In this document: positions 1,238-62,500 of the stretch, one piece after another
Layout: each line of letters opens with the position of its first letter
Numbering within the stretch: position 1 is the first letter of the stretch
Assembly (NCBI GenBank): GCA_033439295.1
Contig: JAVTLE010000023.1
Location: 1,302,001 to 1,366,000, forward strand
Source: Deuterostichococcus epilithicus
Taxonomy: Eukaryota; Chlorophyta; Trebouxiophyceae; Prasiolales; Stichococcaceae
Direction: 5' to 3'
DNA: 64,000 nucleotides
The notes under the pieces: generated by a model
Databases searched by the model: none
What the model was told of the DNA's origin: nothing
What the model saw: only the letters and a program-made list of their open reading frames with translations
Program-made: the position numbers and the translations under genes

Positions 1238-4200
1238 TCACTCCCAGCCCTCCTCCATAACGCCCTGGTTGCTGCTCTCCTCCTCGGCGGTGTCGGCCCT
1301 CGCGAGCATGCTGCCAAGGTGCGCCGATCCAGGCTGCCACTCGCCGCTGGGCGCTGCCGGCGTCTCCACACCCTCGCCGTCGGCGCCGCTGCCGGAACTC
1401 TGCTCGAAGCCCGCAAAGTCTTGGGCCAGCTGCGTCACGCCAAGATCCGCCAGATCCTCCTGTAGCATGCAGACACAGGGAACTGTTTTCAGCGAGTGAA
1501 CAGCACATTGTGCCGCCCGCCGCGATCACTGGGGCGGTTCCCCAATCCGCCAGATCCTCCTGTAATAAGGAGCGGAGGACGACCGTCTCGTCGTCTGAAA
1601 GTAGAGTGTACCACCTTTCTACGAGCAGTCAACACAGCTCCTGGACCAGCTGCATCACAATCAAGACGCCAGATCCTCCTGCATTCAGTAGCAAGAAAGG
1701 CGACCCTGCAGCGGCGCATCGGCAGATTGGGCCACCTTTTCATCAGCAAACAGCACAAGGAGCTGCTCCGTAGGAGCTGCTCCTCAGGGAGATACGAGCA
1801 TTTATCGCCCAGCTTGGACGTACGGCCATTGCCAAGCCGAAGCATGCCGCCCACCTGTGTGGGCGGCGCGTCCAGCATGTGGCCAGTGCGGCGCAGGAAC
1901 TCCTCGGTGGATTCGATGTAGTGCCCGCCCAGCTCCTGCAGATCCGCGCGCCCCGCCGGGTCTTCCACCTGAAGCGCGGAGTTCGGCGTATCAGCAGCGG
2001 CTTGCCATGCGACCATCGTTCTGCAGGTGTGGCCTGCACCCGTTGTGATGCAGTGCCCGCCCAGCTGCTGCAGGTCTGCGCGGCCCGCTGGGTCCTCCAC
2101 CTGAGTTCCATGTCAGTCACATGTACGCCACCAACTGTGCAATACATCCCCATCCGTGATCCGTTTGCCAGCTCCTGCGGGCCCGCACCCCCGGCCGGGC
2201 CCTCTGCCTAGGGCCCTTCGCCGAGCGCTCAGGACACCGCACCAAGTCACTGCTGTGATGCGATGCAAGCATAGCAGCACGGCGGCGAATGTGCGATTCA
2301 GGTAGAATGTCACAATACTGTCACACTCAACGCGCCAGCCCGCACTTGGTGTCAGCACCCCCACAGTTGCTGGCTGCGGCTGCGCGGTGCGGAGCTGGTG
2401 ACGCGACACAGCGTGCCAGGCCTCTCGGAACGCAGGAGCATTGCATCAGACCCAAGTACGGCGCCAGCTCAATCATGTCAGAACTCGAATTACATGTCGA
2501 CCCGTGCATCACAGCCAGCTCCTCACCGTGACCACGACGTCTGCGGGGTGTGCAGCAGTGCCGTCCAGAGTGATAAGCTTGTAGATCTCCTCGTTGGTCC
2601 ACTCCGGGTACTGCTCGTCCCACGGCTTCTGCAGCCGGGTGTCCGTCCGGTCGTCCACCTGTTGTGGCGGTACGAGAGCGAGCTGAGCACACCAATGCAT
2701 TCGACACATTAGGACGTCAACTGCTGCAGCCTGGCGGACACTGGTTGCAATTGCCACATGTGCAAGGACTGCAGAATGCCGTCGCTCTGGTGCCCTGCAC
2801 CCCGCGGAGTTGGCGTGCAGTCATGCAGGCTGCACCCAGTCAGATGACCAGCCTCATCGCGGCAGGAGCTTTCGGAAGAGGGCGATCTAGCAACCCGGCG
2901 CTCATCACGCGGTCATTGTACGGGTCGACCTCCGTGCAGCAGACGACTTGCAAGCTTTCTAGGACCCTAGACCGTAATCCCTCAAATGCGCACCACGAGG
3001 TTGTCATACAGGCCGACCTCCGAGCGGCGCTCGTTCCACTCTGCCCGCTCCCTCGCCTTGCGTGCCTGCTTCTCGACGTAGGCCCTGCAGCGTGAAACAG
3101 AGGACACGATGCCACTCAGTCCATGCACATCCAAAGGGGAAGGGGGTTCGGTGCCGCAACAGGAGCCCAGCGGAATCCTGCGATGCGCGCGCCTTTGCCA
3201 CATGCTCATGTGGCTCAGCTCTGCGCAGCCGGCTCATGCAGGACCAAGCAAGGAAGACCAGGCGTCAGCTCACGTGCAAGCGTGATGCTGGTCATGAAAG
3301 TCAAAAGAGCCATCTGCACAGGGCCTGGCTGGCGGTGCCGCAGGCTGCGGTGTTTGCTGCCAGACACCGGCAGCACGCTGCAGCGTGTCGCACATCCACT
3401 AAGGAGGGGAAGGCGCATCTGCAATGGGAGATTGCACAGCACAGCGCGCGGCACTGGACCAGAAAGTTGAGCCCGTACCTGGACCCCTCTCGTCCCCTCT
3501 CCGACGTGGCTGAGCGGCGCCTACCAGTCCGGCGGCTCTGTCCCCCAGCCAAAAAGGGACTATATCAAAAGTGCAAGCTAGAGTTCACAACAAACCGTCA
3601 CCTGAACTCCCATTCGTCCCACTCCGGGTTTGTGTACGGCGCTTCCCACTCCGGCGGTTCCGCCGTCGGCTCGAACACTTTCCGGTCCGGGATTGGCATG
3701 ATGCCCACGAAGTCTTTGCGCTCCCGCAGCTCGTCCAGGTTGGGCGCCACGTGTGCGAAAGTCTTGTCGAAGGTGTTGGCCCAGGGCACCTCACCGTCGC
3801 CGGCCACGCTCAGGCCGCCCGTCGGGTCCTCTGCGCGACAGGCGCCGAGGAAGTTTCGGCAGCGTGTAGGGGACCGGCAGAAAACAGGCGTATGAGGTTT
3901 GACAACGCAATGAAACTTGCAGCCATTGCAGTTGACAAAAGGTGGTACAAGCACAGAGCATGCATAGGCAAGAGCATGCGGGAATGGCAACAGCGTGCGG
4001 CGACAACTCACCATTGTTGGAGAACTGCCACCAGTCGACGACCTTCTCCGTCCAGTTTTCGAGGTCGTCCTCATCGTCGTCCTCGCCGCCGACGTTCTCC
4101 TCGTCGAAGCCTGGACACACGATGCCAAATGTTATGGCGGGCGGTGCGGCAGCTTGCCGGCATGCCGCTGACAAGGGCCTGCCACATGCGTTCATCTGAC

Positions 4201-4673
4201 GCGACAGCTGGACTCGTGAGCAATCTCGAGGCCAGCGAACGACACGGCTGCCACGCGCCAGCGCACGTCTGTGCACCCTGACAGCGAGCTCGACGCACAC
4301 TGCGGCGGCAGTGCTCCCTTAATGTGAACGCACAGGCGCGGACGGTCCATGGACCAGGAGTACCTTCCAAGCTGGTGAGCTCTCCATCGTCGTACTCCTC
4401 GTGCTGCTCCTGCTCGACAACCTTGCGAGGCCGGCCCCGTGTGGCCGCTGGCGGCCGGCAGAGCCGCCTGCGCGGCTGCTGCCAAACACGTCTGGGTGCA
4501 GCGGGTCGGCTGCTGCAGAGCGCTGCTGGACTCTGGTGCCTTGAGCCTAGGCTTTGCAGCGCAGGCCGCGACCAGGACGCGAGCAGCTGCCTGCGAACGG
4601 GGTGGATTGCCGACGGTGTGCAGGTACACAGGTGGCTGCTCACGACACCGCTACGCAATGACATATCGGCCAC
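1238..4673 (-). CDS. Plastid-targeted acidic conserved protein (unnamed)
   Basis: About seven exons on the minus strand: 4673-4364, 4110-4012, 3830-3602, 3084-2994, 2658-2528, 1968-1855 and 1459-1238. The junctions keep frame. The N-terminus is basic and Ser/Arg-rich (transit-peptide-like) and leads into the acidic stretch VVEQEQHEEYDDGELTSLE and then FDEENVGGEDDDEDDLENW. The core has WANTFDKTFAHVAPNLDELR, IMPIPDRKVFEP, a Trp/Glu-rich YTNPEWDEWEF, a charged helix VEKQARKARERAEW, and PWDEQYPEWTNEEIYKLI. The tail is acidic and ends MEEGWE. The text looks conserved and plastidic, but I cannot name the family with confidence. The start at 4673 is the upstream ATG in frame with the acidic exon and is uncertain. 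Decayed copies of its last two exon starts lie in the adjacent introns. Confidence 0.5.
1445..1685. repeat. Three copies of the last exon's acceptor end
   Basis: The 20-mer at 1445-1464, covering the start of the last minus-strand exon and its acceptor, is repeated exactly at 1545-1564. It recurs with changes at about 1666-1685. The third copy also shares the preceding 20 or so bases (CCAGCTGC.TCAC) with the exon. Copies 2 and 3 lie inside the intron. Confidence 0.75.
2047..2104. repeat. Intronic echo of exon 1855-1968
   Basis: This 58-base segment matches 1915-1972, the acceptor end of the neighbouring exon, with about seven mismatches and an offset of 132 bp. In the minus-strand frame it still reads EDPAGRADLQQLGGH against the exon's EDPAGRADLQELGGH. 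It retains an AG just before the coding similarity. Confidence 0.8.
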
Positions 4674-4938
4674 CGGCCATCAGCCGTGTAGCTTGACGCG
4701 CTTCGTGATTGTGGGGTTCGAAAACTGACTGACCAGCTCAGGTCGTCCGATGCCAAAATGTGTCGGAACGCCATCTTAAGTCAGGCACAAATGTCTGGCG
4801 CCACGGCTCTACGATTGGCACAGGCCTGTACCGATTACCCTGGTGAGAATGTCGCGTACAGGCGATCAGGCTGCAAGATAGTATCTGCGACAGTGAAGTT
4901 GGTGCCGCTCGCGTTCAGCACCTCGACTAGACAGCAAG
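4674..4938. promoter_or_regulatory. Divergent promoter region
   Basis: This 265-bp gap separates two divergently read genes and must hold both promoters and 5' leaders. I see no specific box. The assignment is positional only. Confidence 0.3.
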
Positions 4939-5835
4939 ATGCTGCCCAACCCAGTAATTGCGCACCCTCCAGAAGCACTGCAACTGCCGGCACATCATCA
5001 GCCGACAGAACCACCCCTAAAGAAGCAGAGAGGCAAGGACGTCGGCAGAGCGGGCGCGGGCGGCAGCGCCACGGAGGAGTGCAGCGCAGCCGGCTGCAAG
5101 GTCACGCTGCCGACCGAGCTGTTCGAGGTGCTGCAGGGGCTACATCAGATTCTCAACATGGACACGTGAGCAGCATGCGTGTTCACATCAGCGGGAGCTG
5201 TGAGACAATGTGCGTGCAATGACGGCTCGCATTTGGCGCTGTCCAGCTATTGACTTGCTTGCTATGTCAGGTGCTCACATCTCGTTGAAATTCTCATGCG
5301 TTGTTCAGCTGGCTCACCTTGCTCTCGGATGCCGAGAGGGACACTCTGCGCACGCACTTACCTCTAGGGGCGGATGACGGGCTGATACAGGTGGAGTGCG
5401 TTCCCTTGTCTTGTATCATCACTGCACACTCCAGGGGTAGCTTGCATGGCTTCATGATCCGTGAGTCGATCACAGAGTACCTCGCTCGATGCAGAGGGTC
5501 TTTGAAGGACAGGAGCCCATCGGCTTTTTCGCTCCGCTGCCGCGACTGTACGCCCAGATGCAGGCTGGTGAGTCTGTCATTTCTGATGCTGCTCGGAGCC
5601 TGCTGCATACTGGCCGCTGTGTTGCTGCGCATGCTCTGTTGCTGCGGCTGCATGGGCGACCAGTCAGCATGTATGCCACACCTGCTCAGGTGAGCTGCAC
5701 CCGCGATCGCGCAAGTACCGAGTCGGCGCCGCCATGCTGAGGCAGCGGGTGCAGATCGCGAAGCTGCGGGAATATCACAATGCCCTCGTAATGAAGGTGC
5801 TGGCAGCAGCCGCTGCGCAAGAGCCAGCAGCCTGA
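4939..5835 (+). CDS. NFRKB/INO80G-like protein, DEUBAD-like domain
   Basis: Exons 4939-5165, 5309-5390, 5495 to about 5570, and about 5728-5835. The spliced text reads TELFEVLQGLHQILNMD, TWLTLLSDAERDTLRTHLP, then RVFEGQEPIGFFAPLPRLYA, and ends KYRVGAAMLRQRVQIAKLRE before YHNALV. The order resembles the N-terminal DEUBAD region of NFRKB, a subunit of the INO80 chromatin remodeller: a helix with W..LL...ER..L...LP, then F.G.P..F..P...L, then a KYR...R.Y.N.L helix. In that family the domain is known to bind and regulate the deubiquitinase UCH37. The protein is short (under 200 residues), so either only this domain is present or further exons are missed. A basic KKQRGK patch before the domain could be a nuclear signal. 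Confidence 0.6.
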
Positions 5836-6916
5836 GCAGCAGCGTGCAGCAGATGAGCGGCAGACAGGCTGATCGCATGCTTGGCGCCAGTTCCAGGGCG
5901 GCTGCGACATTGCAGCAGGAGCGTTCGCCACTGGTGCGGGTTGTTTCGGTGTCAGGAAGCATATGTACTCCTTCGCCCAAACACAGGTTCTGGAGGTGCG
6001 GCTTCTGCTCGGTTGTGGGCGCTGCATGCTGCACAGTGTCGGAGCATACGTCCTGCGAAAGTCAGATTGCCTGTTCTGACAGCCGGAAGCATCTGCCTTG
6101 CAGGTTGCATCCTGGGGTGTCCACCTTACTATGGAGCGTAGTGTTCCCTGCATCAGGGACTTAGGCTTGAGAGCGGCTGCAATTCGCTTCAATCAGGAAT
6201 ACAAATGCTGGAATCAGCATGATAGAGACGATCTCATTCACGGAAAGGGCAACTATGTGCAATCATGTCTGTAACCTCAAGGCCGCGGATGTAAAGCGCC
6301 AATGCACGCTCCCTGCCGCATGAAAAGTGACGCCGCATTGGAAGAATGCTTCAGTCAATCGCAGCTCTGTGCAAGCCAGACGCCCCCCAGCAGTCTGTTT
6401 ATCTCTCGCCCACCGCCGTCTGAACCTGTGAAGGCGCCCGTTGCAGGATTGCAGTGCCCAATTTGCTCCACAGTCCACACCCGATGTGAAAATCTCAAGC
6501 CGCCCTGGAGCAGCCTGCTCCGAGCGTCTGTTCTGCAACTCGCGCAGGAAGTCTTGGGTTTGCGCGGTGTCGTTCGGAAGCGTTACGAGTGTAATAAACA
6601 GCCCGCAGTGTTGTGTGCGCAAGCTGAAGTTGGCCGGCAGCCACTGCACGTTGGGTGTGCACAGATTCTTGAACTGCGGACAGCAGCAAACATAGTCTGC
6701 AGACTCATCGCTTAGCATGCCTTTGATCAGTCACAGCACGTAAGGGCTTCCGGTTCGTCCGTGAAACCAAGACCTCCGTCGAGTGCCTCAGCAGGCGCAC
6801 CCGCGCAAGCGGCATTACAGAAAGCCGTCCGCACTCATGCGTGCTGTACGTTTCCCTTGCTAGGACCCCCGCACGCCTGCCGCTGAGGCAGCGGCAGGCC
6901 TGCAGCGCCTGCCGAC
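5836..6916. other. Intergenic region, no gene seen
   Basis: About 1.08 kb between two genes on the plus strand. It should hold the 3' end of the NFRKB-like gene and the promoter of the polymerase gene. I see no conserved coding text on either strand. Confidence 0.4.
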
Positions 6917-18366
<11,450 letters not shown>

Positions 18367-18992
18367 AGAGTTGTCACGAGGAGAAACGGCGGCCACCGAC
18401 TGCGCAAAGCTCAGAGTCTGTGGCGTGCAACGCCTGCTCTGCAGCACCCAATTTTGTATATAATCAGGCGTCTGCAAATCTGTTGGCGTGCGTGCTACGC
18501 CAAATCTGGTTTCAGTCAACGTGGAACGGTCAGCACACTTGTTTCTGGGTGTGCTGCATATGTAGCGTGTCTTGGATTTGTCAATTGGCTTTTGCTTAGG
18601 CACATCGGTCCACAGATGCGGCAAGAAGTCCTGGATAGTTATGTGCCCATGCGGGAACACGACGCGAGTGTCCTTCCCCTGTAATCGGATGCGCACGTCA
18701 TGTACTGCCAAAGATACATAAGCAAGAGCCAGCCAGCAGCGTGAGGACAAGGGCACCGCCATGGCAGAGGTTCTGACCAAGGCCTGCAGTAAGGTATGCT
18801 TTCGTCCGCAAGAGCTTACACAGGCCATTCAGTGCCAATCCCATCAAAGCGCTGGCGTTGGTACCTTCTGGAAAATCAATGCTGTACAAAGGGTGTTCGT
18901 TGCCTTCCCTGCTATGCTGCCGACGAAAGGCATGTCTTGAATTTCATGAGCAGGGCGCCGCTTTCCGATCCTGTTCCAACATTCACGGTTTC
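18367..18992. other. Convergent 3' flank, no gene seen
   Basis: This 626-bp spacer lies between the ends of two convergent genes and should hold both 3' UTRs. A tiny ATG-initiated frame at 18761 (MAEVLTKACSK then GT) leads to no recognisable next exon. Confidence 0.4.
18680..18684 (+). terminator. TGTAA poly(A) motif after RPC2
   Basis: TGTAA is the usual green-algal polyadenylation signal. This one lies about 314 bp past the RPC2 stop. The assignment is positional. Confidence 0.4.
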
Positions 18993-40533: not shown

Positions 40534-40760
40534 ATCACGTAACCGATGATTCAGAGCGCGGGAAGCTTCCCTGCGTCACCTGCTTCCTTCAGACTCAGTG
40601 CCGAGCAGCAAAGGTCCAGAAGCTCAGCATGTAGTTCCGCTGAAGCACGAAGCTGCCTGTCCTCTCGCGACGCCGCGTGACTGTTGTGGAGTTTGACCTT
40701 TCGTGTGATCCACTGCAACCGCAAGCTCCCTGCAGAGCCTCAAAGAAGGGTCTCCCAGCC

Positions 40761-44367
<3,607 letters not shown>

Positions 44368-44436
44368 GGCAATTTAGCAGTAGTTGGTTATGCCGTGCGG
44401 CGTCCGTTGTGGACATCAGGAATTGTTCCCAGCCAT

Positions 44437-44441
44437 TGTAA
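44437..44441 (+). terminator. TGTAA poly(A) motif after the MYST gene
   Basis: TGTAA lies 70 bp past the stop codon, a normal distance for a green-algal polyadenylation signal. Confidence 0.5.
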
Positions 44442-44661
44442 TCGCTTGACCCGGCATGACACAACGCATCAGCCTGAGTGAGGCTGGAACGGTGTAACAC
44501 TCTCACACACGGTAGTGAAGCTGTGAAGCGGAGAAGAAGTCATTTCAAAATTCCGATAAGATCTCCTCGCGAGCTTGCTGACGCAACTGCCCGCGCCAAG
44601 TTCCGCAATAGGCGATTCTGCCCACAGCCAGGACGACTTGAGCTAAGTTCACGATTCAGTC

Positions 44662-46904: not shown

Positions 46905-49900
46905 ATGGCGGGCCCAGCCGTCGTCCGGACGTTTGAGGAGGTGCTGCACATGGCCCTGCCGCCGCCGCATGCATGCGCAGTCGTGCCCTGGACAGGAAAT
47001 GCGTGGCGTCCGGGGCTGAGGTCGTTCGAAAGACTGTCAGAATTAGATTCAGGCCTTCTGATAAGTGCATCTCTGCCCCTGCAGGAAATGGCGTACATTC
47101 ATCAGGAGACGCCGGTCCGGTACCGCATCAATGAGGGAATGGTGCCCGACATGCGTGTGCCCGGCAGGTTTTACGTCAATGAGCGGCTGAAAGGGCTCAT
47201 TTTCGACGAGCTGGCAGCCGCGACGCAACGCGGCGGCCAGGGCGGCTTCCTGCCCGCCATCAAGCAGATCGCCAACGTGGCGGCACTGCCAGGCATTGTG
47301 AAGGTGAGCCGATTTTGGCACAATGCTGTCCTGTGGATGGCTGCGGAGCTCGACCGCTGTGACGGCTGCTGCAGCGCAAGAGCTGCTGGTGTCCAGACAG
47401 CCTCGACTGCGAGCAATGATGTGGGTTTTGTAATTATCCACAGGCGTCCATTGCGCTACCGGATGTGCACTCGGGCTATGGCTTTGCGATCGGCAACGTG
47501 GCGGCATTCGACATGAACAACCCGGAGGCAGTCGTGTCCCCTGGCGGAGTCGGCTTTGACATCAACTGCGGCGTGCGCCTCATCCGCACAAACCTGGTGC
47601 GAGCCTGTGCAATGATTCACCGTCCGGTCTGCACCTAGTGCTGAGAGCTCACCTCGGATAGCAGCGCCCTGATCTGCACTGTCGTGGGTGTCTCCATGCA
47701 CAGCTGCAAGGCAAGCACAGTGCTGCAAGTCGAGGGCCTGGGCTTGACCTACCTCGCCAGCAGTGTGCGCTTCACCCTTGCAGGCTTGCTGGCGCGACCA
47801 CCTGTTGCATTTGCCACTCCAGGCCCTGTGCACAGGTAGAGGCGGATGCGGCAGAGGTCAAACTGAAGCTGACTGTGCCTTGTCTTAACACAAGCCAACT
47901 GACGCCCGCAGATGGAATCGGATGTGACGGAAGTCAAGGAGCAGCTGACGCAGTCGCTGTTCGACCACATCCCCGTCGGCGTTGGTTCCCAGGGCATCAT
48001 CCCGACCACAGCAAAGGACCTGGAAGCCGCGCTGGAGATGGGCATGGACTGGTCGCTGCGGGAGGTGCGCATTTTGGAGCATTCGTGGAGCCTGGATACC
48101 CACTCATCCCGATGTGTCAATTCGCCAAGCAGCGCGCCTCTTCCCCTTCTTGGGTCGCATTCTGCAGGGGACTCGGAGCATGGCCAATACGACATGTCAT
48201 GCCGACTGGAACACGGTCCCACCTTGGACTCGAGCACGAAACATCAGTGAAGTCGAACAGGCTGAGATTTCGCATATTCATGCCCACTGTGCTGCTCCAT
48301 CTCGGCTCTGCACGACGCTGCTGTCTCGCAGCACAGCTGTTCCGCTGTCTGTTGGCGCAGCACTGTGCAAGGAGTGCCGACTCGAGGAGTGTCGGCCCGC
48401 ATAGCCGCTGCAATCGATCTTCAGGCTGCAAACCCTGAATGCAGGGCTACGCCTGGGCGGAGGACAAGGAGCACTGCGAGGAGTATGGCCGCATGCTCAA
48501 CGCGGACCCCTCCTGCGTCAGCCAGCGCGCCAAGAAGCGCGGCCTACCGCAGGTGACAGAATGCAGTTTTAAAACCCTAAAAAGCACTTTTCTGCTGTGT
48601 AGCTAGGTGATGCGGTAGTGTTCTGTTGACTGAGGTGTCAACGCATGCATGGCTGCACACTGGCAAGGATATACGTTGCCTGCCTGTCAAGATGCCAGGC
48701 GTCTCCCGAGCCTTTGCAGGCTCCCATCATGTCTCCCAATCCTGCACAGATGGGCACGCTGGGCGCCGGCAACCACTACGCGGAGATCCAGGTTGTGGAC
48801 GAGATCTTCGATGCGGCGGCCGCCCGCAAGATGGGCATCGAGCAGACGGGCCAGGTCTGCGTCATGATCCACAGCGGCAGCCGCGGCCTGGGGCACCAGG
48901 TGTGCTTTCCTCATCAGTCGTATCCCTCTTCTGGCTCTGCCGCTCCCCGCTGCAGAGGCGCATTGAGCCGAGAGCAACATGAGGTCAGCAACGTGAAGCG
49001 AGTCGCAAGAGCAAGTCGCACATCGTCAGTGCAGAGAGGACTCTACACGAGGATGGAAGCGCTGTCTCGCGCGTGTCTCTACATGCTGTCGATGGTGTCC
49101 GTTATTCTCCCGGCCGGCGCTGCACCGCAGGTGGCGACAGATGCGCTGGTGGCCATGGAGCGGGCTATGGCACGGGACAAGATCGCCACCAACGACCGGC
49201 AGCTGGCCTGCGCACGCATCCACAGCGAGGAGGGGCAGAACTACCTCAAGGTGAAGGGTTGTGGTCCTCTGATGCTACTTCATCATGAGACCGGCGTGGG
49301 GCCCCGGCCATGCCATCGGCGTGGCGTTTCGTAGCTTTGGGCACATCGGCTGCACCCCAGTGTTGCAGTGTTGCTGGCGGGAGATGCTCGGCTGCTTCTC
49401 CTCTGATCGTGCTGATCATGCTGAGGAGCGTGCCGACCACTGCGTCTGTGCATGTGGCGGCGCAGGCAATGGTGACGTGTGCAGCCAACTATGTGTGGGT
49501 CATCCGCAGCAGCATGACCTCCCTGTGCTGCCACCAAGTCTCCTGCACCGACACAAGAATGTCTGCACATGAAACGCAGGCGATGGCGTGCGCCGCCAAC
49601 TACGCCTGGGTCAACCGCAGTAGCATGACCTTCTTGTGCCGCCAGGCCTTCGCCAAGCTGTTCAAGCAGTCGCCCGACGATCTGGACATGAATATCGTGT
49701 ACGACGTCAGCCACAACATCGCCAAGGTAAGCTTGGAAGCTTTCAGAGTAGACTCTCATTTGAGCGGGGTTCAGTCTCATGTTTTCGATTTACAGCCACT
49801 TCCGGGCCATGGCATCTGCTGCGTGCCAGCTTCATTCAGCCTACATCTGCAAGGAGCACCAGGCACATCAAATCCGGGTGCATGCCCCTTGCATCCGCCG

Positions 49901-50961
49901 GCTGTGCCTCGTGTCCTCGCCTTTTCCCACGAGCAGAAGAATGCGCTGCGACCTCCTGCTCAGCTGCTGCTGCCAAAGGCGCAGGTGTTGCCCAGAGCCA
50001 GTCAGCGTGACTCGCCTCATAATTCGCCACATTCCTGAGCAGGTTGAGGAGCACGTGGTGGACGGCCGGCAGATGCAGCTGCTGGTTCACCGGAAGGGGG
50101 CCACGCGCGCATTCCCGCCTCACCACCCCCTGATACCTGTGGACTACCAGTTCACTGGCCAGCCGGTGCTCATTGGCGGCACCATGGGCACATGCAGCTA
50201 CGTGCTCACAGGTGCGGCAGCGCAGAACTCTGATCTTAACCGCCGCTGCATTGCCACTGCGCCACATCGTATCGGGTGCCCTGTGCCACGCCCACTATCA
50301 CGCTCCGCCAGGGCTGCCTGCGGTCACTGAAGTTGACACCCCCCCCCCTTTTGCAGCCTCTCCTTCCTGCAGTCCATGGTCTGCTGTCCATCGCAACGCC
50401 ACTGGGAGCCATCTGCGACCACCACGTTTCAATGGAGTGAGACATTGCCTGGCCCAGGCACGGACAAGGGTATGCAGGAGACGTTTGGCTCTACGTGCCA
50501 TGGCGCCGGCCGCGCCCGCAGCCGCAACAACTCGCGCAATGCGCTCAGCTACACCCAGGTCCTGGATGCGCTCAAGACCAAGGGCATCGCCATCAGGTGC
50601 CGCTCGCTACCGCCCACTCAAGCCGCTGCTGGCTCTCCAATCATTTCGATTCGCCGCTCAAGCGCAATTGTTCTGCTGACGTTGTTCACCTGCAGTGCTC
50701 ACATTGGTTTTGTTACCCACTCCTGAAGATCTTGGTCTGCTGGCAATGCTGAGCACTGCTGAGCACTGCACCTCGATTGCGGGGCTGTCCCCACCTGACC
50801 CAGCACCATGTGAACCCTACAGGGTGGCCAGCCCCAAGCTGGTGATGGAGGAGGCGCCAGAGTCGTACAAGGATGTGACGGAGGTCGTGGACACCTGCCA
50901 CGAGGCCGGCATCTCCAAGAAGTGTGTCAAGCTGCGCCCCATCGGCGTCGTGAAGGGTTGA
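46905..50961 (+). CDS. RTCB: tRNA-splicing RNA ligase RtcB
   Basis: About eleven exons: 46905-46940, 47084-47303, 47444-47596, 47912-48064, 48445-48552, 48750-48899, 49131-49250, 49580-49726, 50043-50211, 50458-50596 and 50823-50961. The text follows HSPC117/RtcB closely: [126 protein letters not shown] and [11 protein letters not shown]. It ends [20 protein letters not shown]. The metal ligand Cys of DINCG, the His of [12 protein letters not shown] and VSHN, and the guanylylated His of CHGAGR are all present. RtcB joins 2',3'-cyclic-phosphate and 5'-OH ends in tRNA splicing and stress-induced mRNA splicing. Frame-open echoes of exon 8 and of the last exon lie next to them. Confidence 0.97.
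49457..49540 (+). repeat. Open-frame echo of RtcB exon 8 start
   Basis: After an intact AG (CGCAG|GCAATGG) the copy reads [20 protein letters not shown]. The true exon, 114 bp downstream, reads [19 protein letters not shown]. The copy has one extra codon but no stop, so it could be spliced as an alternative exon start. Confidence 0.85.
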
Positions 50962-50984
50962 GGGGTCCACAGCGGTGGTGTCAT

Positions 50985-51240
50985 GTGGGGAGGCTGGGCG
51001 GCAGAGCTGGCAGCCTGCCGCGAGGCCTCAGAAAGAAGTGCATTCAAGCTACGCCCCACTGGCGCCACGCTACTCCTTAGTAGCTTCGTCAAGGGCTGCG
51101 GCTTTCGCAGCGACTCGGGTCGGCGGCATGACTGCGGAGCCAAAAGCCTCCTTTTCTACTCCACTGCTCGGCCCGCCACGAGGCTGGCATCAGCAAGATG
51201 TGCGTTGTGCTGCAGCCCAGCAGTTATTCAAGGACTGAGG
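50985..51240 (+). repeat. Two echoes of RtcB's last exon in its 3' flank
   Basis: The coding end [17 protein letters not shown] recurs twice after the stop. The first copy, at about 50997-51070, reads CREASERSAFKLRPTGA. The second, at about 51170-51238, reads ARHEAGISKMCVVLQP then SSYSRT and a stop. Both share the orientation of the exon. Confidence 0.8.
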
Positions 51241-51659
51241 CGGCCACGACGGCCACGATGACGGTGGCACCGATGTGGGAGTCTGTGTAGCATCGTGGTC
51301 AAAAACATGCCTTGACTTGACAGCAAATCCCTCGTTGGGTCCAGACCCTGCTTGGCGGCCTAAAAACTCTGTGTGGTCGGACTTGCAAGCTGCATTCGAC
51401 TGGGCACATCGCCACCTGCTCAAGCGCTGACGTGGTGCTGCGGTGTGCTGCCATATCGCTCTAGTCCCTGAATGCATGTGGGCAGTCGCTGTGGTGTGGT
51501 TTCGGACCTCTTGTAACTGCCTTCCAGTTGAACCTCGACCGACAAGACGAGTTCACAACGCTTTTCACACTGTTGGACATGGCAGCGCACACACCATGTG
51601 GTGAATCAGTATGAGACCTCATCAACCTAGTTCCTCACGATATATCATGCAATCCCTCC
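51241..51659. other. Convergent 3' flank
   Basis: Spacer between RtcB and the F-box gene. A TGTAA at 51512-51516 may serve RtcB. No gene is seen. Confidence 0.4.
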
Positions 51660-53008
51660 TCACAACTCCTCACGAAGTGAGAACGCACAGATGGCAACGC
51701 TGAAGGAGCTCTCCCACTTGATTCTGGCTCTGCTATCTCGGTCAGTGCTGCGGTTTGCAAACACCGCCAGTGCGCCTGCATCCTGCAGGTGTCTGTACAT
51801 GCGCTGCACTGGAGCTGCTTCGAATTCTGACGCCAAATCGCGCACTTCCAGACGTGTCAGGAACGTGAGCTGCAGCAGCGTCGGCTGGTGCACCAGCATC
51901 GAGATGCTCAGGGCCCGCAGCGTGCCCGACAGCGCCGTCAGCGATGCTGGCAGCGCCACCTCTGGGCCAGGCGCCTCCGGTATAAGCGTCTCGTTCACCC
52001 GCAAGATGCGCAGCGAGCGCAGCGCGCTGATGCTGCCCAGCAGCGAGCTGACGCCGGCTTCCCGCAGCTGCAGCACCTCCAGCCTGCTGAGCCTACTGAT
52101 GCACTCTGGCAGCGGGCGCATGTCCTCCTGCGCTGCCTCCATTGCCAGCCACCTCAGAGCCGAGCAGCTGGTGAGCGCAGAGGGAAAGCCGTTCCGGAAG
52201 GCGTTGGTCATGGTGAGGCTCAGCCTGGTCAGGCTGCACAGGTGGCTGACGACTCCGCCGAGATCACCAATGCTGTTCTCGACCCAGACATGTTCCAAGT
52301 CCAGGCGGCGGAGCTGTGTCGGCGCGAGGCGCAGCCACTCGAGGCTGCCGGCGTTGGACAAGCATTCGTGGAAGCTGAGGCACTCCAGCTTTGTCGATGT
52401 GCTCAGCAGGGGCATGAGCGCCTGCATAACCGCCGGCATCGCCGAGGCATCCTCCTCCGGCGGCTCCTGCATTGAGGCAGACAGCCTTTGGCGGTTTGGA
52501 ACATCTGCTGCACGAGTGAGGCAACACCGGAAGGACGCTGTCTGGCTGCGTACATCATGCGCGGCTCCGCATGCACGTGCATCACTCAGCCGCAGCACCC
52601 GCCTCACCCAGGAGCAGACGGCGAGGGATTCGACGGAGGAGACCCTCGGCGCCAGCCACCGCAGTTTGTGCAGTGGGGTCTCAACGACATGTGTTCCTTC
52701 AACAAATGCTTGTGTGCGGAAGACCAGTATAACGTCGCTCCACACGGGGCTGGCCGGCGCATCGCACAGCAAGCGCCAGTGCTTGCAGACGCATCGAACG
52801 TGCTTTGCCCTGCGCATGCACGCAGCGCTTCAGCATGCATTGGTGTTCCTCCTGCGCTCCATTCGTCATGTACCTCTACCAGATGCTTGTGCGTGACACG
52901 GCAATGCAATGCATCTGCTTACCTGTCTTGAAAAGGTACAGCCGCCAGCACCCTCTGCAGCAGTTCTGCGGGCAGGACCTGAATGGTAGTGCGAATCCCA
53001 GATGCCAT
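51660..53008 (-). CDS. F-box / leucine-rich-repeat protein
   Basis: Two minus-strand exons, 53008-52923 and 52809-51660. The small first exon gives MASGIRTTIQVLPAELLQRV then LAAVPFQDR, which joins in phase to AKHVRCVCKHWRLLCDAP. Together these make an F-box (LP.ELL..VL..VP..D......VCK.WR). The rest has leucine-rich repeats: LECLSFHECLSNAGSLEWLR, LRRLDLEHVWVENSIGDLGG, LTRLSLTM, LRWLAME, LEVLQLREAGVSSLLGSISA, LRSLRILRVNETLIPE and LTRLEVRDLASEFE. It is likely a substrate receptor of an SCF ubiquitin ligase, whose RING partner RBX1 is also in this window; substrate unknown. Total length is about 411 residues. An overlapping open frame on the other strand is taken as a shadow because the LRR register is so regular here. 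Confidence 0.85.
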
Positions 53009-53560
53009 GGTTATCGCTAAGCTTTCATGCAGCAAAAGTACGCGGTGCGCGGCAACTGAGACATTGCCTCACGGTAACCGGCTCCGGCTGCGGTGACTGA
53101 GCGACACGGTTCCACCCGTTGGGTTTTCCCACATTTTTAAAAAGTCCGATCGTGCTCACTTTGATCTCATGCTGCGCATGCTGCGTGGGCCAGCGACCTG
53201 ACTGCCGAGAAAGCGGCCAGTTGGCAATTGTTGTTGATCCTTCAACAAAAACGATTCGCATGCTGTTCCGTGCGTTGGAAGGTAGCTGAACAGGGTACCG
53301 TTGCAACATCGGCAGGCGACCCGCACGACGACGTCTCTGACCAAATAACCTGCGCGTCCAGTCACGCCAGCTCCTTAGGTACATACAACACCATCTGCAG
53401 GCAACTCTTTAAGGTTATGTTGCTTGCACAGTCGAAGCGTGTCAGGTGTCCTGATAAGATGTGGACTTCAAATGCACGCATGCCATAGCCTTGCTTCGGA
53501 CTGGACGCTGTTGCTAAGGTCACACATCTGTGCAGGCGCTCAAGGGCGCACTCAATACAC
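53009..53560. promoter_or_regulatory. Divergent promoter, F-box / BRCT-BAH genes
   Basis: A 552-bp gap between two divergent starts. I see no named element. Confidence 0.35.
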
Positions 53561-56500
53561 ATGGCGGAGGGCGGGTCAGTCGCGCGGGACTGCAGCGCCG
53601 CCCGACTGCCAGCCCAGGCGCTGCCGCGGTCGGACAGCCGCACACTGCCGCTGGAGGAAGACGGGGTGAAGGCCGACTCTGCGGCACCCACCGAGGTGGC
53701 TAGCGTGGCGTGTGTCGCGACACAGATCGCAGAGGAGCCGGCATTGGTGACTGCGACAGTGGTGCTCGAGACAGCAGCGGCAGAGACAGCAACGGTCGCC
53801 ACAGCAGCGATGCACACGGAGGTGGCCTCCGGCGCCGCACCATACCTTGCGACGCAGCAGATGCAGCACGGCACGGCAAGCGACGGCACAGCCGCGATGG
53901 CGGATGCTGCTGCAGTAGACGGCGCGAGAGTGCCAGCCGATACCGCCGCGGCAATGGGCGCACCGGCCAGCGCCACTGCGCCTGCGCCGCCGTATGGCAG
54001 TGCATATGCGACAGGCACCGGCGCGACAGCGGCCCAGTTAGCGCGGCTGCGTGCCACCGAGCTGTTGCCGGGTCAGTCATCTCAGGCAGCAATGGCGCTC
54101 ACAGCTGTTGAGCCATCTGGCGGAGCTTTGCCCATCCCGGCGCCTGCCTCGGAGGCTGCGGTGGCTACAGCGGCTGCGGCAGGTGACATGGCGGCACGAC
54201 CCAGGAAAGGGGAGCGGCACTCAGTGGCGCATCCTGCTGTGAGCCCGGCGGCAGCAGAAGGCGAGCCTGCATCCTGGCGGCAGCCGGCTCCAGCCAAGGG
54301 ACAGCACGGCGGCCCAAACGACGATTCGGCAGAGCACCCAGTCACCATGCCACAGCAGCATCTACCGCCAGCTGCAAGCACCAAAGCGGCAGCCCAGCCG
54401 TCAAGCTGGCCAGCGCAGTCAACGGCGCCGTCATCACAGGCGCCCGCAGTGTTGTCAGCCATGGATGTGGCCACTGCGCCCGTCACAGACGGGTCCAGCC
54501 CGCCAGTCCAGCTGCCGCCAACAGCCATGGCTGCCACCGAGCTCGCTCGGACCCCCCTATCGCCCGCGGCTGAGGTTGCCGTGCTAGCGGATCGGCAGAT
54601 CAGGACGCAGCAGCAGCAGCAGCAGCAGGCGCAAACATCAGTAATTTCGTTCGAGGGGCATCAGCCAGACAGCTTTGACGCCAATGTCATGATGCAGCCA
54701 TCGCAGGCGCCACTGCTGCTGACGTCTGAGGGCGGCTCGGATGCCCAGCCATCAGAATTTGAGGCGCAGGTGGCCGCCGCTGGCGCCCAGCCATCGTGGC
54801 TGTCGGTGGCCGTCTGTCAGAGCACAGCGCTACAGAGCATGCCGCATAGTAGAGGGCGCCTTGACACAGAGGTGGCGGCAGCCAGCCAGCATCAGCATGC
54901 GCCGGTCGCAGCCACGCCAGCGGCGGCAATTCCTGCGTCAGCGACGCCCGCCGCAGCTACGCCAGTCGCTCAGGCCAGCGTAGTCCGCCCCGTGCAGCCG
55001 ACGGCCGGCGGATCCGTGGCGCCGGCTGGCGCCCCGGATGCTGCAGCTTCGCCTGTCAGCCGCATCCAGGAGCCGATGCGAACCGCCGCCGTTCAGACCC
55101 CCTGCAGCCTGCCGCTCAGCGGGCCTGGGGCTGGAACGAGCACAGCCGGCGGCGGGTCAGACAGCGCGGGTGCTGCCGCGGCAGCAGTGGCGGCACCTGC
55201 CCGGGGCCGCATATACATGTCGTTGCAAGCTACGGCGCGGCAGAGGGACGCCGCCTTCAGTGCGCTGCTGGCCAGGTTCCTGACACAGGGTGACGAGCTG
55301 GCGGGCCTCGATTACTCCGACTGCGTGGCGGCCGACGAGGAGGTGGCTCGGCTGTGCGCTGGGGACGTCCAGGTGCGTTCGTTTTTGAGATCAACAATTG
55401 GTTCTGTTCCTTTTACTAGCTGCCCCAACGACCCTGCACCCCGTCCGCTTGCGCTGCACGCGCACAAGCCTCTGGCATGAGCATGCGCATGAGTTTGTGG
55501 GCAGCCTGTTTGGTTCACATTCAATGGGGCGAGCGAGCTCATGCGAGGGATCGGTGCAGGAGGCAATGTCAAAGCACTAACAGAGTGCATTGCGCCAAAG
55601 ACTTGCGAACGGTCCTGACTGATTGGCTCTCCCCGCCTGGCTGCAGCTGAAGGTGCAGTGGGAGGCCCTGCTTTGGGAAGCGCGCCAGTTTGGCCACCTC
55701 GAGCCACTGAGCTTCCAGGGCGGCGCATCGGCAGCGTCACTGGCAGGCGCCGGCGCAGAGTCCGAGGTGATTCTGCGTTTTGCTCATTCTTTGTTCTAGA
55801 GCCTTTCCAAGTGGTGTAGCAGGTACAAGGTGGTATGGCATGATGTTGTGCAAGCACTGGTTCCGAAGCCTCGGGACAGCTGGCAATAACTAGACCAACG
55901 CGTCGAGCTCTCTTTTGCGAGTGCAGTGAGTGACTGTTGGAGGGACAGTTTCGACTCTGCTCGCTCCACCCCCCGAGTTCTGCTGCGATGGGCACAGTAT
56001 GGCATGATGCTGCAGGTGTCATGGGATGCCGGAGGGGCAGTGGAACCTGTCGAGGCGCTGGATCCTGAGCAGCAGGTGTCGCTCACCGCTGGCAGTCCCT
56101 CGCAGTCTGCGGCTGCGGTTGTGGCGGCGGTCCGCAGCCAGCTGGCAGCTGCCTCTCAGCTGGCAGCTTGGGGTGGCGACCCAGCCGCACCACCAAGCGC
56201 AGGCGGCTCACCCACCCTGCCGGCGCTCCTCGAGTCGCCGGGCTTGCCGCCAGCGGCCCCTGCTGCCTCCTGCCAACTGCAGGCCGTGCCCCCGACTGCC
56301 GAGGGGCTCGCCGCTGCCGCACCAGTGGCTGCTACACCAGCCGCCGCTGGCGCTTCCGCTGCCGCGGCTGCCGATGCAGCCTTGGCCGCGTCCCAGCCGG
56401 GACCGTGCTCCCCGCAGGGCGGCAGCTGGGACGCCTCGCTCAGCCTGCGGCTCACTGGCCAGGCATCGGGCCAGCGCGCTGACACTCCGCAGCTGCCGGG

Positions 56501-59500
56501 CACAGTGCTGCAGCTGCCGTCGACAGTGCGGCTGCTGCAGGACATCAGGGACAGTGCTTCTCAGCCGTGTCACGATGGCGGCGCCAGCGTGCTTTCTGCG
56601 TCCTTCGCCCCTGAGGTAGCCACGCAGCTGGAGCAGCTGTCCTCTCCGCAGCAGCCACCGCCGCGGGCGGCCACCCGACAGCAGCGCCAGCGGCGGCCGG
56701 GCAACGGCTTGCTGAGCTCGGACTCGGTGGCCCAGCCGGCGGCGGCGCTGCTGGCGCTGGCGCCGCACCCGGTGCAGCGGCCGCCCCGGACCTGGCAGCC
56801 GCGGTGCCGGCGGGCAACGGCGGGCCAGCGGAGCAGCCGCGCAGCGGCGGCACCAGACTCCAGGCCGCAGCGGCATCAGAGACGCAGGACGTGCGGGAGG
56901 AGGCGGCGCCTGGTGCGGCCGCCGACTCTGGAGAGGCAGAGGTGCGCTTGCAGTGTGCCATCAGAGCAATGCACGCAAACCTACACTCGTACACACACGA
57001 CTCCCGGCCTAAAAGAACAGCTGTCTGAAAGTTCTGCGGAGGCGACTGTGCAGGTGCAAGAATCAACTTCGTGGCTGTGCGCCCGCAGGAGGTGTCGTCG
57101 CGGATGTCCCCGGCGCCGGACGGCGTTGCGCCAGGCGCTCACATACAGCTGGCGCCGCAACATGCGGCGACGAAGGCACAGCCCCCCGCCACGCAGGCGC
57201 CCGCCGCTGCCACCCAGTTCGACTCGCTCCTAGCAGCCGAGCAGCTGCAGAACATGCACGCCGCTGGTGGCGCGGTCGCCATTGATGCCGCCGCCGCCGC
57301 CGCTGCCCCCAAGGCCGCCACGCCTGCGACGCCGCCTGTGGCTGCGCCCTTGGCTACGCCGCAGCAGTCGCTGGGCTGCGGCGTCGATGGCGTGCCCGCA
57401 ACGGGCGCCACGCCGGCGGCGACGCCTCTTGGGGAGACCCAGGCGCATCAGCGGCGGCAGCAGCGGCCAGCTGGGGCGCCCGCCTCAGGCGCCGACCTGC
57501 TGTGCTCTTGGGTGTCTCCTACCCAGCAGGAGCAGGCCCGCAGGTGGGCTTCACCTACGCTGCACCCGACTGCACTCTACGACGCCATCTCACCTTCCAC
57601 TTGCCTAAGGCATGCAACCCCCACACTTTCAAGTCTGACACCGCGACGATCTGCGTGCCAGGCACACGGTGCCTGCACAGCCACTGCTTGCTTCCGATGC
57701 CCTTCTGGTGTACTGCTGCAGGAGGCGGCTGGACAGCGGCAGCGACCCGGCCAAGCACAGCTCAGAGGACGAGGTCACAAAGCGCGGCAGCCAGCCCGGC
57801 GTCCCAGCTGCAGCGGCGGCGGAGGCCGGCGTGGCAGGCGGACGGGAATCTGACCGNCCAGCTGGCCGCGCCGCCGCCTCGCAGCCGCCGGCCAGCCCAC
57901 TTGGCGCAGCCGTGCCGGACTCTGCCGATCCGGAGCAGCTGCCGCGCCTCGGGGCGGCCGCCGATGCTGCCGACATGGAGCGCCAGCTGGGCAGCGACCC
58001 GGACGNGCAGCCGGCGCCGCAGCCGGGTCCGCGAGCGGGGACGGCCGGCCGGTCCGAGCTGGCCGCGGTGGAATTGGCGGCAGCGGCAGCGGCGGATGTG
58101 CCGGACCCCGAGGATGTTGTCATGCCTGATGCGCGGCCACAGAAGGTGATGCCGATTGAAACAATGCGCAACAGTCTCAAACCCCAGCCGGTGTGGAATG
58201 CTTGCTGGACAATTCTTCTCACTGCAGATGTACCATCGTAGACATCATCGAGCAGCTTGCCCTGCATGGACCGCAGAGCATCCAGCAATTGTCAATGTGG
58301 GTGCCTGAAGGGGCCTCGTTCTCCTCTGTAGGCGACCGGCAAGCGCAAGGGCCGGGCGCCGCCGGCGGTGCCGCCGCAGATCCGCAACGTGCGCCGCGAG
58401 CTGCTGACGTCCTCGCAGCAGGGCCGCCCCCAGGCGCCGCGGCGCGCCTCGGCGGCCGGCCATCGCTGTGCCGTGGGACCGGCTGCGGTTGTGGCGTCAG
58501 ACACCCACGAAGGTGACAAACCATCAACTGTTCTCAGTGAAGCCAGTCAACAACCAGCTTTGCAGCGGCCTCTGAGCGGCTGGCTTGCTTGCGGTCCTCT
58601 GCAACTCTGCCTATGCATGCGTCATATCGTACTCAAGCAGCTCGTGTGTGGCCTGTCAAACTGCCAGGTTACGCCATGTTCGCCTGATCAGCCCCGTGAG
58701 TGCTTGGTACGTGCAGCCGGACCGGCCGGTGCCGCCGCTCGTGCCGCTGCGGCCCGCCCCGGCGGCGTGCGGCAGCAGCCCCGAATGTCCCAGCGCCAGG
58801 CAGCAGAAGGCCGCCGTGTGTCGCTGCCGGCGAGTGCCGGCGCGCAGGAGCCAGAGGATGAGCACCCCGTGCGCAATGCGCGCCGCCGGCTGAGCATGGG
58901 CGCCGGGCCGCTCAACTCTGGAGCGCCCCTAACCAACGAGTATGGCGATGCCAACAGCGACCCATATGGGTGCGATCCTTGGCAGTGACTGGATAGAGTT
59001 GACTGCTTCCAAGGACGCTCCAGGCATTGTAAGCCCGGAGCCCGTGGACGTAGGATGAGCCTCTGCACTCGAGCGTAGGTAACTGAAGATTCGCACAACT
59101 TTGCAGGCAGGTTCAGACACCGTGAGGTTATGCGGATGATTGACCTGTGGCCAATTGCTTTGCAGGTTCCAAGCCACAGCCAGCCAGGCCCATGATGCCC
59201 ACCTCTGTGGCCCGCCCGGCGCAAAGGCGGCCGCTGCCACGGCTGCGCACGCCGCGCCCGCAGCCGCCGCCGCGCCACCTGCCGGCGGCCGCACAGAGCG
59301 GCCCGCCACACGCCGCGGCNGCGGCGCGCACCAGCGGCAGCCCTCGATCAACGCGATGCCGGTGGCGGCGCCGTCGCCGGCCGTAAAATCCGGCGCTTCC
59401 ATTGCCGGCAGGTCGGCCGCTGGACGGTCACCCACGCCGCGTCGGCGGCGGTCGCCTTCTNCCGNCCGCAAGCGGCTGGAGAACGCCTCGCCGCCGGCCT

Positions 59501-62500
59501 CGCCCGCCAAGCGCCGCCTGCAGCTGCAGGTCAGCAACACCAACGTTTTTTCCAGGCTGCAAGTTCCATAGATTGCTGTATAACAGGCCGATTGTCATGA
59601 TGGCGGGACATCGTTTGTCCCCCTGAGGCCTTTCAAGTCCCCAGCAGCGCGACCGCACCTCTTGCAACCGCAGTGTGTCTGACTTCCCAGGTGAAGGGGC
59701 GGGACGGCGGCAGCGCCAGTGCCGGCGGGCAGGGGCTCGCCAAGCGTGCCCAAACAGCGGCTGTGCCACCGCCGCTGGCGCATCAGCGCTCACTGCGGGC
59801 CATCCGGCAGCCCGCCAGGCATGCGTGTCGATATACCAGGGGACTGTGGGAGCACCACGCTGGCTGGCTGTCCGCCTGGAATGTGGCCCTCTGACGCTGG
59901 GAGCCTTGCCCAGCTCTGCTGGGCGAGCTACCAGGACAGACAAGGATTACCAGCCTGGCATCAAGAGCAGTGGTCGCCGCAGGCGTCGCAGTGCTTCCGC
60001 ATGGTTGCGCAGCTCGGCTTGAGTGCAAATCACATACACCTAACACATACCCTGTAAGGTTTGCAACAACCTGCTGCAGGTTTTCTGGCGGCGCCAAGGA
60101 CTCACAGGATGAGCCGCTGCGGTGGGGCCGCCGCTCAGGCGGCCGCAGGCCCCGCACCAGGTGCGCAGCCTCGCATCTCGTAATGCATGCCTTTGCACCC
60201 TGTCCAGTACAACAGATCCAGATGCATCACTAGAGCCAAGGGCATCATCATCATCATGACATCATCCTCAGGGCTTTGGGGCTCAGCGCTCCGAGCTTGC
60301 CGAGCCCCGCTTCTGTTCTGCCTCCAAAGTGTACGAGTACGTGCAGCCTGAACAACCTTGAAGCACAAGTTCCAACCTGCAAGAGTCTGTGCAGGGCCCT
60401 GGACAGCCCTGCCTCCAGCCAGGACGATGACGAGGCGCTGCCCGCCGGCCTCGCCGCCGTGCTCGGACGGCCGCCGGCACCCGGCTCGCCCGCCGACTCC
60501 GGCGGCGCCGAGTCCGACGGCGGTGGCCTGGAGCTGCCTGCAGACGGATCGCCCGGGGACCTGGCCATGCCGTCTGAGGAGGCCGAGGAGAAAGCAGGGG
60601 CAGGGGAGCAGGAAGCTGAAGAGGCCGGCGGCAGCCAGGTGCGGCCAACTCTTAATGGCTTGGTGAAAGTGCTGAGATCACACGTGGCTTCTGAGTGGTT
60701 GTCTTCACCTTTAATTATCAGGCTTTCGGTGACTGCAACAGCTTCCACACGACCTGCATGGCATGTCGCTCAACAAATGCCAATGCAACGCGGCCATGTG
60801 TGCCGGCGGCAAGAAAGATGTGCGGCAGGCTGTGACTGAGATCAGTGCCATGTGCGTGTGTGCAGGACGATGCAGCGCCGCCGCCACTGGGCTGCTCCAA
60901 GTGCCGCTGGTCCAAGGGCGGTTGCGGGCAGTGCCGAGCGGCCCACGATGAGGCTCTTCAGGCGCGCCTGTCTGCGCCTTCCTTCTCTGCTGTCTCGACT
61001 GCAGAGTCTCTCCTGGCCATCAGGGTGTCCTGAGGGCATCAATCGTGCAGGGTGCATGGTGCTCGCACACACACACTCAGCTGGCTGAGGATATGTTCCG
61101 AGCCCACCTGTTTTTTTGCATCAAGACCTGGCGTAGAGTGCCTCGGTCTCGAGCCCCGCTGACATCAGACGGCTCTCCTCCAGGCGGGGGAGGGACCGCA
61201 GGCCGGGTCGCCCAAGCGGCATGCCCGCACGCGTCGCGTCAGTGACGTCCCCGCGTCCCCGCCGCCCCCGCGGCAGCAGCCGCCTGCAGGCCGGCGAGCA
61301 TCTGGCGGCGCCGCCACCGCCGCCAAGCATGTCAGGCAGCACGACCAGCAGGCGGGCCAGGGCGCGGCTGCGGCGCAGGCGTCCTTGTCAGCGCTGGCGC
61401 AACGTCTGCGGCGGCGGTCCAGCGCGGGCGGCGCCGCCGCTGTCAGCGGCAGAGCCAGCGACAGCAGCGGCATGGAGTCTGGTGGCAGGGCCAGCGGCAG
61501 CGGCAGGGCGGGCAGGAGGGGCGGCCTGTGGAGCAGCGGCGGCGTGTTTGGCGGCATGGCCTTCCTGCTGACAGGCGTCGCCGGCGACGCGGACGACAAG
61601 CGACGCATCGCGCAGCTGATCACGGATCATGGCGGGGTCGTGCTGCAGGAAGTGCCCGCCGACGAGGTACAAAATAAGCATACCAAAATCTCGAAACTAC
61701 TTTCCACTGGACCATGCATATCCGCTGTCCGTGCGAGCAAGCAGGAGATCGTCGAGTGGCAGCTGTCACTGCCTACAGTGCCCAGTGAACTTCACGAACA
61801 TCTGCGAACTTGTGAGTCGGTGTTCTTTCCCAGCATGTCCCCAGAAGGGCGTAGTTGCGGCGGCCGACACCGCCACCGTCATCATGGACAGTGCCGATCA
61901 ATCCCTGTGAACATCTGTAAGGACACTTGAATGCATCCTTTCCGGAAATGTCTCCTGTCTGTCCACAGGAGGGGGTGGAGGTGGCGGCCGTCATCGCGGA
62001 CCGAGCGGTGCGTACGCCAAAGTACCTGTTCGGCGTCACCCGCGGCTGCCAGATCCTCAAGGCGACACACCTGAAGGTGAGCTCCAGTCGGGCACAAACA
62101 GGCTCAGGTAATAGATGTACAGAGTCCTGCGGCTGCTTGTCGGTGCACCTGCAGGATCCGATTCCTGGCGCCAGGTGACGGACGCAGACGGAGTCTGGGA
62201 TACGCAATGCAAGCCGGTGCGTGACAAGAGCAGCGTGGTTGGGATCACACGCCCGGCCACACTGCGCAGGTGTGCGTGGCTGCGGGCAGGTGGGTGCCGC
62301 CGCAGTCGGCGGAGACGCTGGCCGCGGCGCTGCCGGCGGCGCCGCGCGTCTTCGCGGGCGCCCGCCTGGCGCTGCACGGGCCGCCGTCCTTCGTGAAGGG
62401 CTTCGGCCTGCAGCTGGAGTACGCGGGTAATCAAGTTGATAATTTTGAAGAAAAAACTATAGGGGGTTCGTGGCACCTGCGCGTGCATGCAGCTGCTCGG

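Follow-up and report, generated by a model that had tools for sequence, protein, structure and literature searches.

The stretch analysed here, hereafter the window, comprises 64,000 nucleotides of the forward strand of contig JAVTLE010000023.1 (positions 1,302,001 to 1,366,000; assembly GCA_033439295.1) of the green alga Deuterostichococcus epilithicus. Five genes were modelled in it, and their introns contain what we call echoes: decayed copies of an exon edge inside the adjacent intron. On the plus strand lie the C-terminal 21 exons of the gene for RNA polymerase III subunit 2 (RPC2; 10325-18367), seven modelled exons of a MYST acetyltransferase gene (42311-44367) and ten modelled exons of the gene for the RTCB tRNA-splicing ligase (47085-50961). 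The minus strand carries 11 modelled exons of a Der/EngA-type double GTPase gene (33467-38674) and five ankyrin-repeat exons (24546-26207). Exons were placed by translated homology, for RPC2 with phmmer against PDB, where human and yeast RPC2 were the best matches, and for the other genes via Pfam domains (zf-MYST and MOZ_SAS for MYST, RtcB for RTCB, MMR_HSR1 and KH_dom-like for Der, ankyrin repeats for the last). Exon edges were set by reading the translations, with donors placed at GT or GC and intron ends chosen at AG. The resulting models total 54 exons and 49 introns (46 GT and three GC donors), and the spliced exons keep an open frame in all five. All results below refer to this single window and these five genes.

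An ungapped scan of the window (+1/-1 scoring, every offset, score of at least 18) recovered 46 local direct pairs at offsets of 30-450 bp, as compared with two and zero pairs in control ranges of equal width at 2030-2450 and 7030-7450 bp. Self-blastn of the window returned 28 direct matches less than 400 bp apart, 22 of which were at 60-150 bp, and none in three Markov shuffles of the same sequence. There are 33 non-redundant pairs with a score of at least 18 at 60-200 bp (offsets 76-200, median 110); 18 of these lie inside the five gene spans, and the remaining ones have no assigned exon. When introns were compared with their flanking exons, 17 of 98 adjacent comparisons reached a score of at least 18, where 0.12 were expected from 2548 non-adjacent comparisons. 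A preliminary description of this DNA had claimed that diverged copies of exon ends lie in adjacent introns and had proposed a genome-wide comparison with non-adjacent exon pairs as a check; the large excess found across 49 introns bears the claim out. With a relaxed gap cost and 60-nt exon edges, 21 of the 98 edges reached a score of 15 (1.0 expected), and a search in which each match was masked before repetition yielded 25 echo blocks with a score of at least 15. The decayed exon-edge copies in the introns of these genes are confirmed as real.

At the threshold of 18, at least one echo is present in 14 of the 49 introns (RPC2 7/20, Der 4/10, RTCB 1/9, MYST 1/6 and ankyrin 1/4), so that roughly three in ten of those examined hold a worn copy of the neighbouring exon edge. 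The five genes are unrelated, lie on both strands and have at least one echo each. They are the verified part of the nine or more genes originally counted, and a genome-scale extent would be an extrapolation from these five.

In RPC2, the echo with the highest score of the set (57) lies at 16984-17060 and copies the start of exon 18 (17111-17186) at an offset of 127 bp. The starts of exons 15 and 20 (the latter at 17939-17973) are echoed at 15827-15847 (offset 89) and 17832-17866 (offset 107). Copies of exon ends occur at 10919-10964 (exon 2, 10794-10840; offset 124; donor echo GCAG/GCGTGC, with the slash marking the junction), at 13928-13955 (exon 11, 13852-13879; offset 76) and at 14436-14501 (exon 12, 14250-14316; offset 185). 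The end of exon 14 is echoed twice, at 15356-15401 (offset 94) and 15463-15510 (offset 200), with a score of 17 between the two echoes, and an internal part of the same exon (15169-15215) is copied without a junction at 15031-15077 (offset 138). All of these are on the plus strand. Between the exon 12 junction and its direct echo lies an inverted copy of exon 12 (14255-14302) at 14374-14421 on the minus strand, with a reverse-complement score of 30 (48 nt at 81%) versus a non-adjacent maximum of 17.

On the minus strand, the Der gene has echoes of the end of exon 2 (38189-38248) at 38081-38140 (offset 108), of the end of exon 4 at 36524-36569 (offset 129), and of the starts of exons 9 and 10 at 34458-34483 (offset 99) and 33837-33889 (offset 110). 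Two echoes of exon 3 fall within 37377-37547, one representing its start (37510-37547) and the other a part 34 nt inside the exon (37377-37413), and the start of exon 5 is present in an array of four echoes (35898-36226). Exon 3 of the ankyrin gene is echoed from both edges, its start at 25462-25510 (offset 94, CCGCAG/GTAT) and its end at 25134-25171 (offset 91, GGAG/GTGGGT, score 16). On the plus strand, the end of modelled exon 1 of MYST (42413-42444) recurs at 42493-42524 (offset 80), and the start of modelled exon 7 of RTCB (49584-49644) at 49473-49533 (offset 111). Decayed copies of the RTCB terminal exon also lie in the 3' flank of that gene, at 50991-51112 and 51172-51292, with scores of 28.9 and 35.6 versus shuffle maxima of 21.6 and 17.0.

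Among the 98 comparisons, 17 copies at a score of at least 18 are direct and one, that in RPC2 intron 12, is inverted, so the uniform orientation first described has one exception. The offsets are mostly as short as was stated, with 15 of 21 echoes at 76-138 bp from junction to junction. Of 21 blocks with a score of at least 17, 19 lie within 12 nt of the splice junction; some copies are without a junction, because 2 of the 25 blocks begin further inside the exon, at 34 and 43 nt. Blocks are 21-90 nt long when measured to the exon edge (mean 50, n = 21), and the spacer between junction and echo is 43-119 nt (mean 62, for the 17 of 21 blocks with spacers of at most 130 nt).

Mismatches between echo and exon affect 13.4, 16.4 and 24.4% of codon positions 1, 2 and 3, respectively (21 blocks with a score of at least 17; p = 0.0013), and comprise 97 transitions and 69 transversions. 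This is as expected for a freely decaying copy compared with a constrained exon undergoing synonymous change, and its presence in several unrelated genes agrees with the decay of the redundant copy that had been proposed. The same mismatches speak against an assembly artefact in which alleles or overlaps were placed in tandem. The window does contain six Ns, but a difference of about 15% at codon positions 1-2, together with some indels, is unlike that of coding alleles, and the copies are specific to the adjacent exon; we find such an artefact scarcely credible. Very unlikely, too, is that gene conversion by the exon has preserved the similarity of the exon part in old tandem duplicates. Conversion would account for similarity limited to the exon and for similar divergences among echoes, but the mismatches are not clustered (adjacent pairs number 30, with an expectation of 32.5, p = 0.74; for the longest match runs, 13.05 versus 11.98, p = 0.08), and the third-position excess indicates independent drift.

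Splice sites were rated in 21 of the 25 blocks. Compared with true sites, 12 of these echo sites rank at the 10th percentile or higher, in a rating that takes the best site within 4 nt and thereby flatters the echoes. Nine of the 12 rated acceptor echoes start after CAG, and two of the Der exon 5 acceptor echoes rank, among true acceptors, at the 82nd and 100th percentile. The donor in the echo of Der exon 2 scores 11.8, at or above 98% of true donors, compared with 8.6 for the true donor; splicing at this echo would insert 108 in-frame nucleotides without a stop. Given the 12 well-rated sites of 21 and an echo donor that outscores the true one in Der exon 2, competition between echo and true splice sites is likely as far as sequence can tell, and the earlier suggestion of competing sites holds to this extent. 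Such sites would also be found in functional alternative or mutually exclusive exons. Only 5 of 21 junction offsets are divisible by three, however, without any frame preference, so that alternative exons are not indicated in general; in addition the copies are partial, and with about 15% mismatch at codon positions 1-2 neither a kept frame nor coding constraint on the copy is apparent. We therefore regard a function as alternative exons as highly improbable.

The divergences of the echoes are similar to one another, with a standard deviation of 0.064 where counting error alone gives 0.060. A simple simulation of steady birth gave 0.105 (p = 0.001), and the data fit one common age of about 0.2 per site. 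Since the observed spread is close to counting error and below that of steady birth, the echo-forming events were likely clustered in one past period, as judged from a small sample, and a past burst fits better than the steady genomic habit first suggested. Introns with an echo are longer than those without (median 331 nt, n = 14, versus 239 nt, n = 35; p = 7e-5). Regression attributes 148 ± 14 bp to each echo, or 96 ± 25 bp when only introns with zero or one echo are used, in agreement with the claim that these events lengthen introns. Because this gain exceeds the block of about 50 nt, each event seems to have added the echo plus its spacer.

The preliminary description read the echoes as tandem duplications of about 100 bp across the junction. 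In its plain form, this reading supposes duplication of about 75-140 bp, after which fast non-coding turnover hides the intron half while the constrained part stays visible. The same orientation and short offset fit, as do the clustering of offsets at 76-138 bp and introns that are longer by about one unit; the acceptor spacers of 43-86 nt would accommodate a full branch-point plus acceptor region, and a case crossing a junction is documented for potato RdRp in the passages of PMC4974935. A tandem unit of about 110 bp with about 50 bp of exon implies, however, that about 60 bp of intron is also present twice. By eye, similarity past the junction usually ends 3-16 nt into the intron side. Between 12 and 20 nt from the junction, in-register identity on that side (21 of 25 blocks) is 0.31 for donors and 0.36 for acceptors; between 20 and 30 nt it is 0.21 and 0.28, whereas on the exon side it is still 0.78 and 0.62. 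An early extension test was weak for large indels, and a gapped flank comparison, simulations and gapped intron windows were added for that reason. Intron flanks of exon and echo, anchored at the junction (21 of 25 blocks), scored 7.1 for own versus 6.5 for mismatched pairs at donors (n = 9, p = 0.14) and 7.3 versus 6.5 at acceptors (n = 12, p = 0.17), neither difference being significant. In simulations with 0.15-0.20 substitutions per branch, tandem copies gave means of 8.6-19.3 over 27 settings, with at least 10 in 23 of them; at 0.30 per branch and with small indels the simulated mean was only 8.8, which tandem duplication could accommodate. In none of 20 blocks did the spacer resemble the intron beyond the echo at p<0.05 (one of the 21 blocks, with a spacer above 260 nt, was omitted).

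Pairwise counts within the gene spans point in the same direction. At a score of at least 15 there are 24 exon-intron pairs versus three intron-intron pairs, at similar opportunity, and all three of the latter are echo-echo pairs; since these were found, copies that diverge on both sides are detectable. Two of 779 overlapping, gapped intron-only windows reached 15, both in the Der array, versus five expected. There was no excess at 13-16 and, above that, only one Der array; at 12 or more, a mild excess of 39 versus 24.6 was seen among these overlapping windows. A whole duplicated unit of exon plus intron is therefore not found in general; the array at Der exon 5 and the 3' flank of RTCB show it in part. 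We consider tandem duplication across the junction possible, if doubtful.

Similarity that stops at exon edges could also stem from a splicing-linked mutational process that once copied exon edges and splice signals into adjacent introns genome-wide, in a burst targeted by gene structure, for example by nicking at the edges of hybrids of DNA with spliced RNA. Blocks would then end near junctions, and their closeness to the junction, the acceptor echoes starting after CAG, the intron-side identity that is near background from about 12 nt, and the preponderance of exon-intron pairs all fit. If true, such a burst would have lengthened introns, planted competing splice sites and made duplications non-random in location. 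The process is nevertheless unlikely in our judgement: for the RTCB terminal-exon copies the copied side lacks a splice junction, none of 21 block contexts continues into the next exon (by eye), the mechanism is speculative, and to our knowledge splicing-linked copying of exon edges is without precedent. Two further sources were discarded, namely cDNA insertions, since the copies run by eye into splice motifs and not into the next exon, and target duplications of mobile elements, the spacers having nothing notable in common.

The account that we favour, tentatively and with less than even confidence, is that the echoes were left by numerous small duplicative insertions at the edges of exons, as in staggered-break repair with filler. 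Each event would add roughly 100-150 bp: some 50 bp of exon edge, splice signal included, would be directly repeated, with about 60 bp of unrelated sequence between the copies. Offset nicks would be followed by fill-in of both ends, duplicating the overhang, and the ends would be joined once a patch of filler had been added; the inverted copy of exon 12 would be part of this filler in RPC2 intron 12. As long as the outer splice site stayed in use the protein would be unchanged, so that the inner copy would become intron and decay neutrally, and the insertions would be clustered in one past burst. Tandem duplication and splicing-linked copying would equally require continued use of the outer site. 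Patch-mediated repair in rice is said, by Vaughn and Bennetzen in 2014, to leave small tandem duplications with filler. Whereas the data show the copies, their geometry and neutral decay, the longer introns and the similar divergences, we infer the staggered breaks, the filler and the use of the outer site. Direct repeats of about 50 nt do enclose spacers that bear no resemblance to the intron past the echo. Spacers of different introns gave a best score of 13 among themselves, where random intron pieces give means of 7-12, and introner-like sequences common to many introns were not seen in these 64 kb. Apart from other echoes, the inverted copy and a single match of 14, the spacers did not match their own exon. 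Self-comparison of the window beyond 5 kb shows few repeats (two direct above 10 kb and none at 5-10 kb, with four and two in the last bins counted separately, and two inverted).

Several points weigh against small duplicative insertions with filler. Except for the inverted exon copy, the filler has no source above chance in the window. Random staggered breaks should also leave intron-internal repeats and longer intron shares in junction blocks; intron-only repeats show no clear excess, with power limited because repeats of about 50 bp are difficult to recognise when both copies diverge. At two sites there is non-coding homology, as tandem duplication would predict. In the Der exon 5 array, some echoes have common intron sequence before the acceptor (partly by eye), and the RTCB 3' copy with the score of 35.6 aligns about 42 nt past the stop codon, its non-coding part alone scoring 11, where shuffles average 7.8 and reach 14.2 at most. 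The first RTCB copy counts against tandem duplication, with a non-coding part at 8.0 versus a shuffle mean of 6.9. Given the homology in this array and this flank, either the process is mixed or the intron half decays faster than inferred. Moreover, the length per echo may be inflated, as long introns offer more room for echoes, and in the age simulation the scarcity of young echoes, with 2 of 21 under 10%, does not by itself reach significance (p = 0.07).

Known systems resemble the echoes in part. The passages of PMC4974935 describe one tandem genomic duplication crossing an intron-exon boundary in potato RdRp. As here, the duplication is short, spans the boundary and leaves both copies with splice signals. 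Unlike here, that single young case shows clear intron and exon homology and created a new intron, whereas the echoes are many, older and partial, with an intron part that is mostly unrecognisable and no new coding exon. AGGT intron gain (Hellsten 2011, as described in PMC4974935) likewise involves short duplications carrying AG/GT junctions, with the difference that there the duplicated exonic segment becomes a new intron, while an echo occupies part of an intron, next to a junction that already exists. In mouse and human cells, fill-in of staggered breaks by CST/Pol alpha produces small tandem duplications (PMC8355091); the short duplicated overhangs are alike, but the passages of that paper describe neither a concentration at exon edges nor a burst. 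Tandem duplicated or mutually exclusive exons (PMC9013439) share the duplication of exon sequence beside the exon. There they are chosen in alternative splicing, unlike the echoes, which are partial, decayed and mostly out of frame. A literature search of titles and abstract openings, with subscription journals thinly covered, gave no description of pervasive exon-edge copies. Partial exon duplication, which may have been reported for Haematococcus, did not appear in the passages of the genome papers PMC7617258, PMC6330051 and PMC10400597.

The growth of introns and the origin of new or alternative exons are open questions. With echoes of similar age in three in ten of its sampled introns, a genome like this one would offer a natural experiment in splice-site choice, with similar sites about 110 bp apart, and in the mechanism of duplication. 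Restriction to exon edges, if it holds genome-wide, is something that ordinary tandem duplication does not explain.

A search of genome contigs with RTCB returned five loci titled archaeal or bacterial and a sixth (L006:4707-6571) on an 11.6-kb contig in a metagenome-assembled genome titled Verrucomicrobiaceae, where RTCB is broken by apparent introns; this contig is probably eukaryotic contamination of the bin. It contains no direct repeat with a score of at least 18 at 60-200 bp, and it is no fair control because some of its apparent introns are shorter than 30 nt. The C-terminal part of RPC2 matched seven IMG/VR contigs (L007-L013) at 35-42%, and viral contigs gave no relative of the N-terminal RPC2 part or of MYST.

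Further along on the strand of the ankyrin gene, Pfam reports a DHHC domain match near 22.9-23.0 kb. The Der intron at 35424-35464 contains a perfect tandem repeat of two 21-bp units, identical copies that are shorter than echoes, and other tandem arrays in the window, with periods of 10-36 bp, are shorter as well. An Rfam search of the window gave nothing at gathering score. The last 10 kb (54001-64000) have only three, weak local repeats with a score of at least 18; G+C is 0.64-0.72 there versus about 0.60 elsewhere, and open frames are long. Five plus-strand frames in 51691-63726 had no Pfam match at E<=0.01, and a minus-strand frame of 385 aa (51663-52817), which overlaps a plus-strand frame of 401 aa, has a leucine-rich-repeat match below the Pfam cut-off. 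At the other end, where Pfam had no match on the minus strand of 1-10000, a three-copy array at 1915-2209 (offsets 132 and 107) appears echo-like by eye in a region without a gene model.

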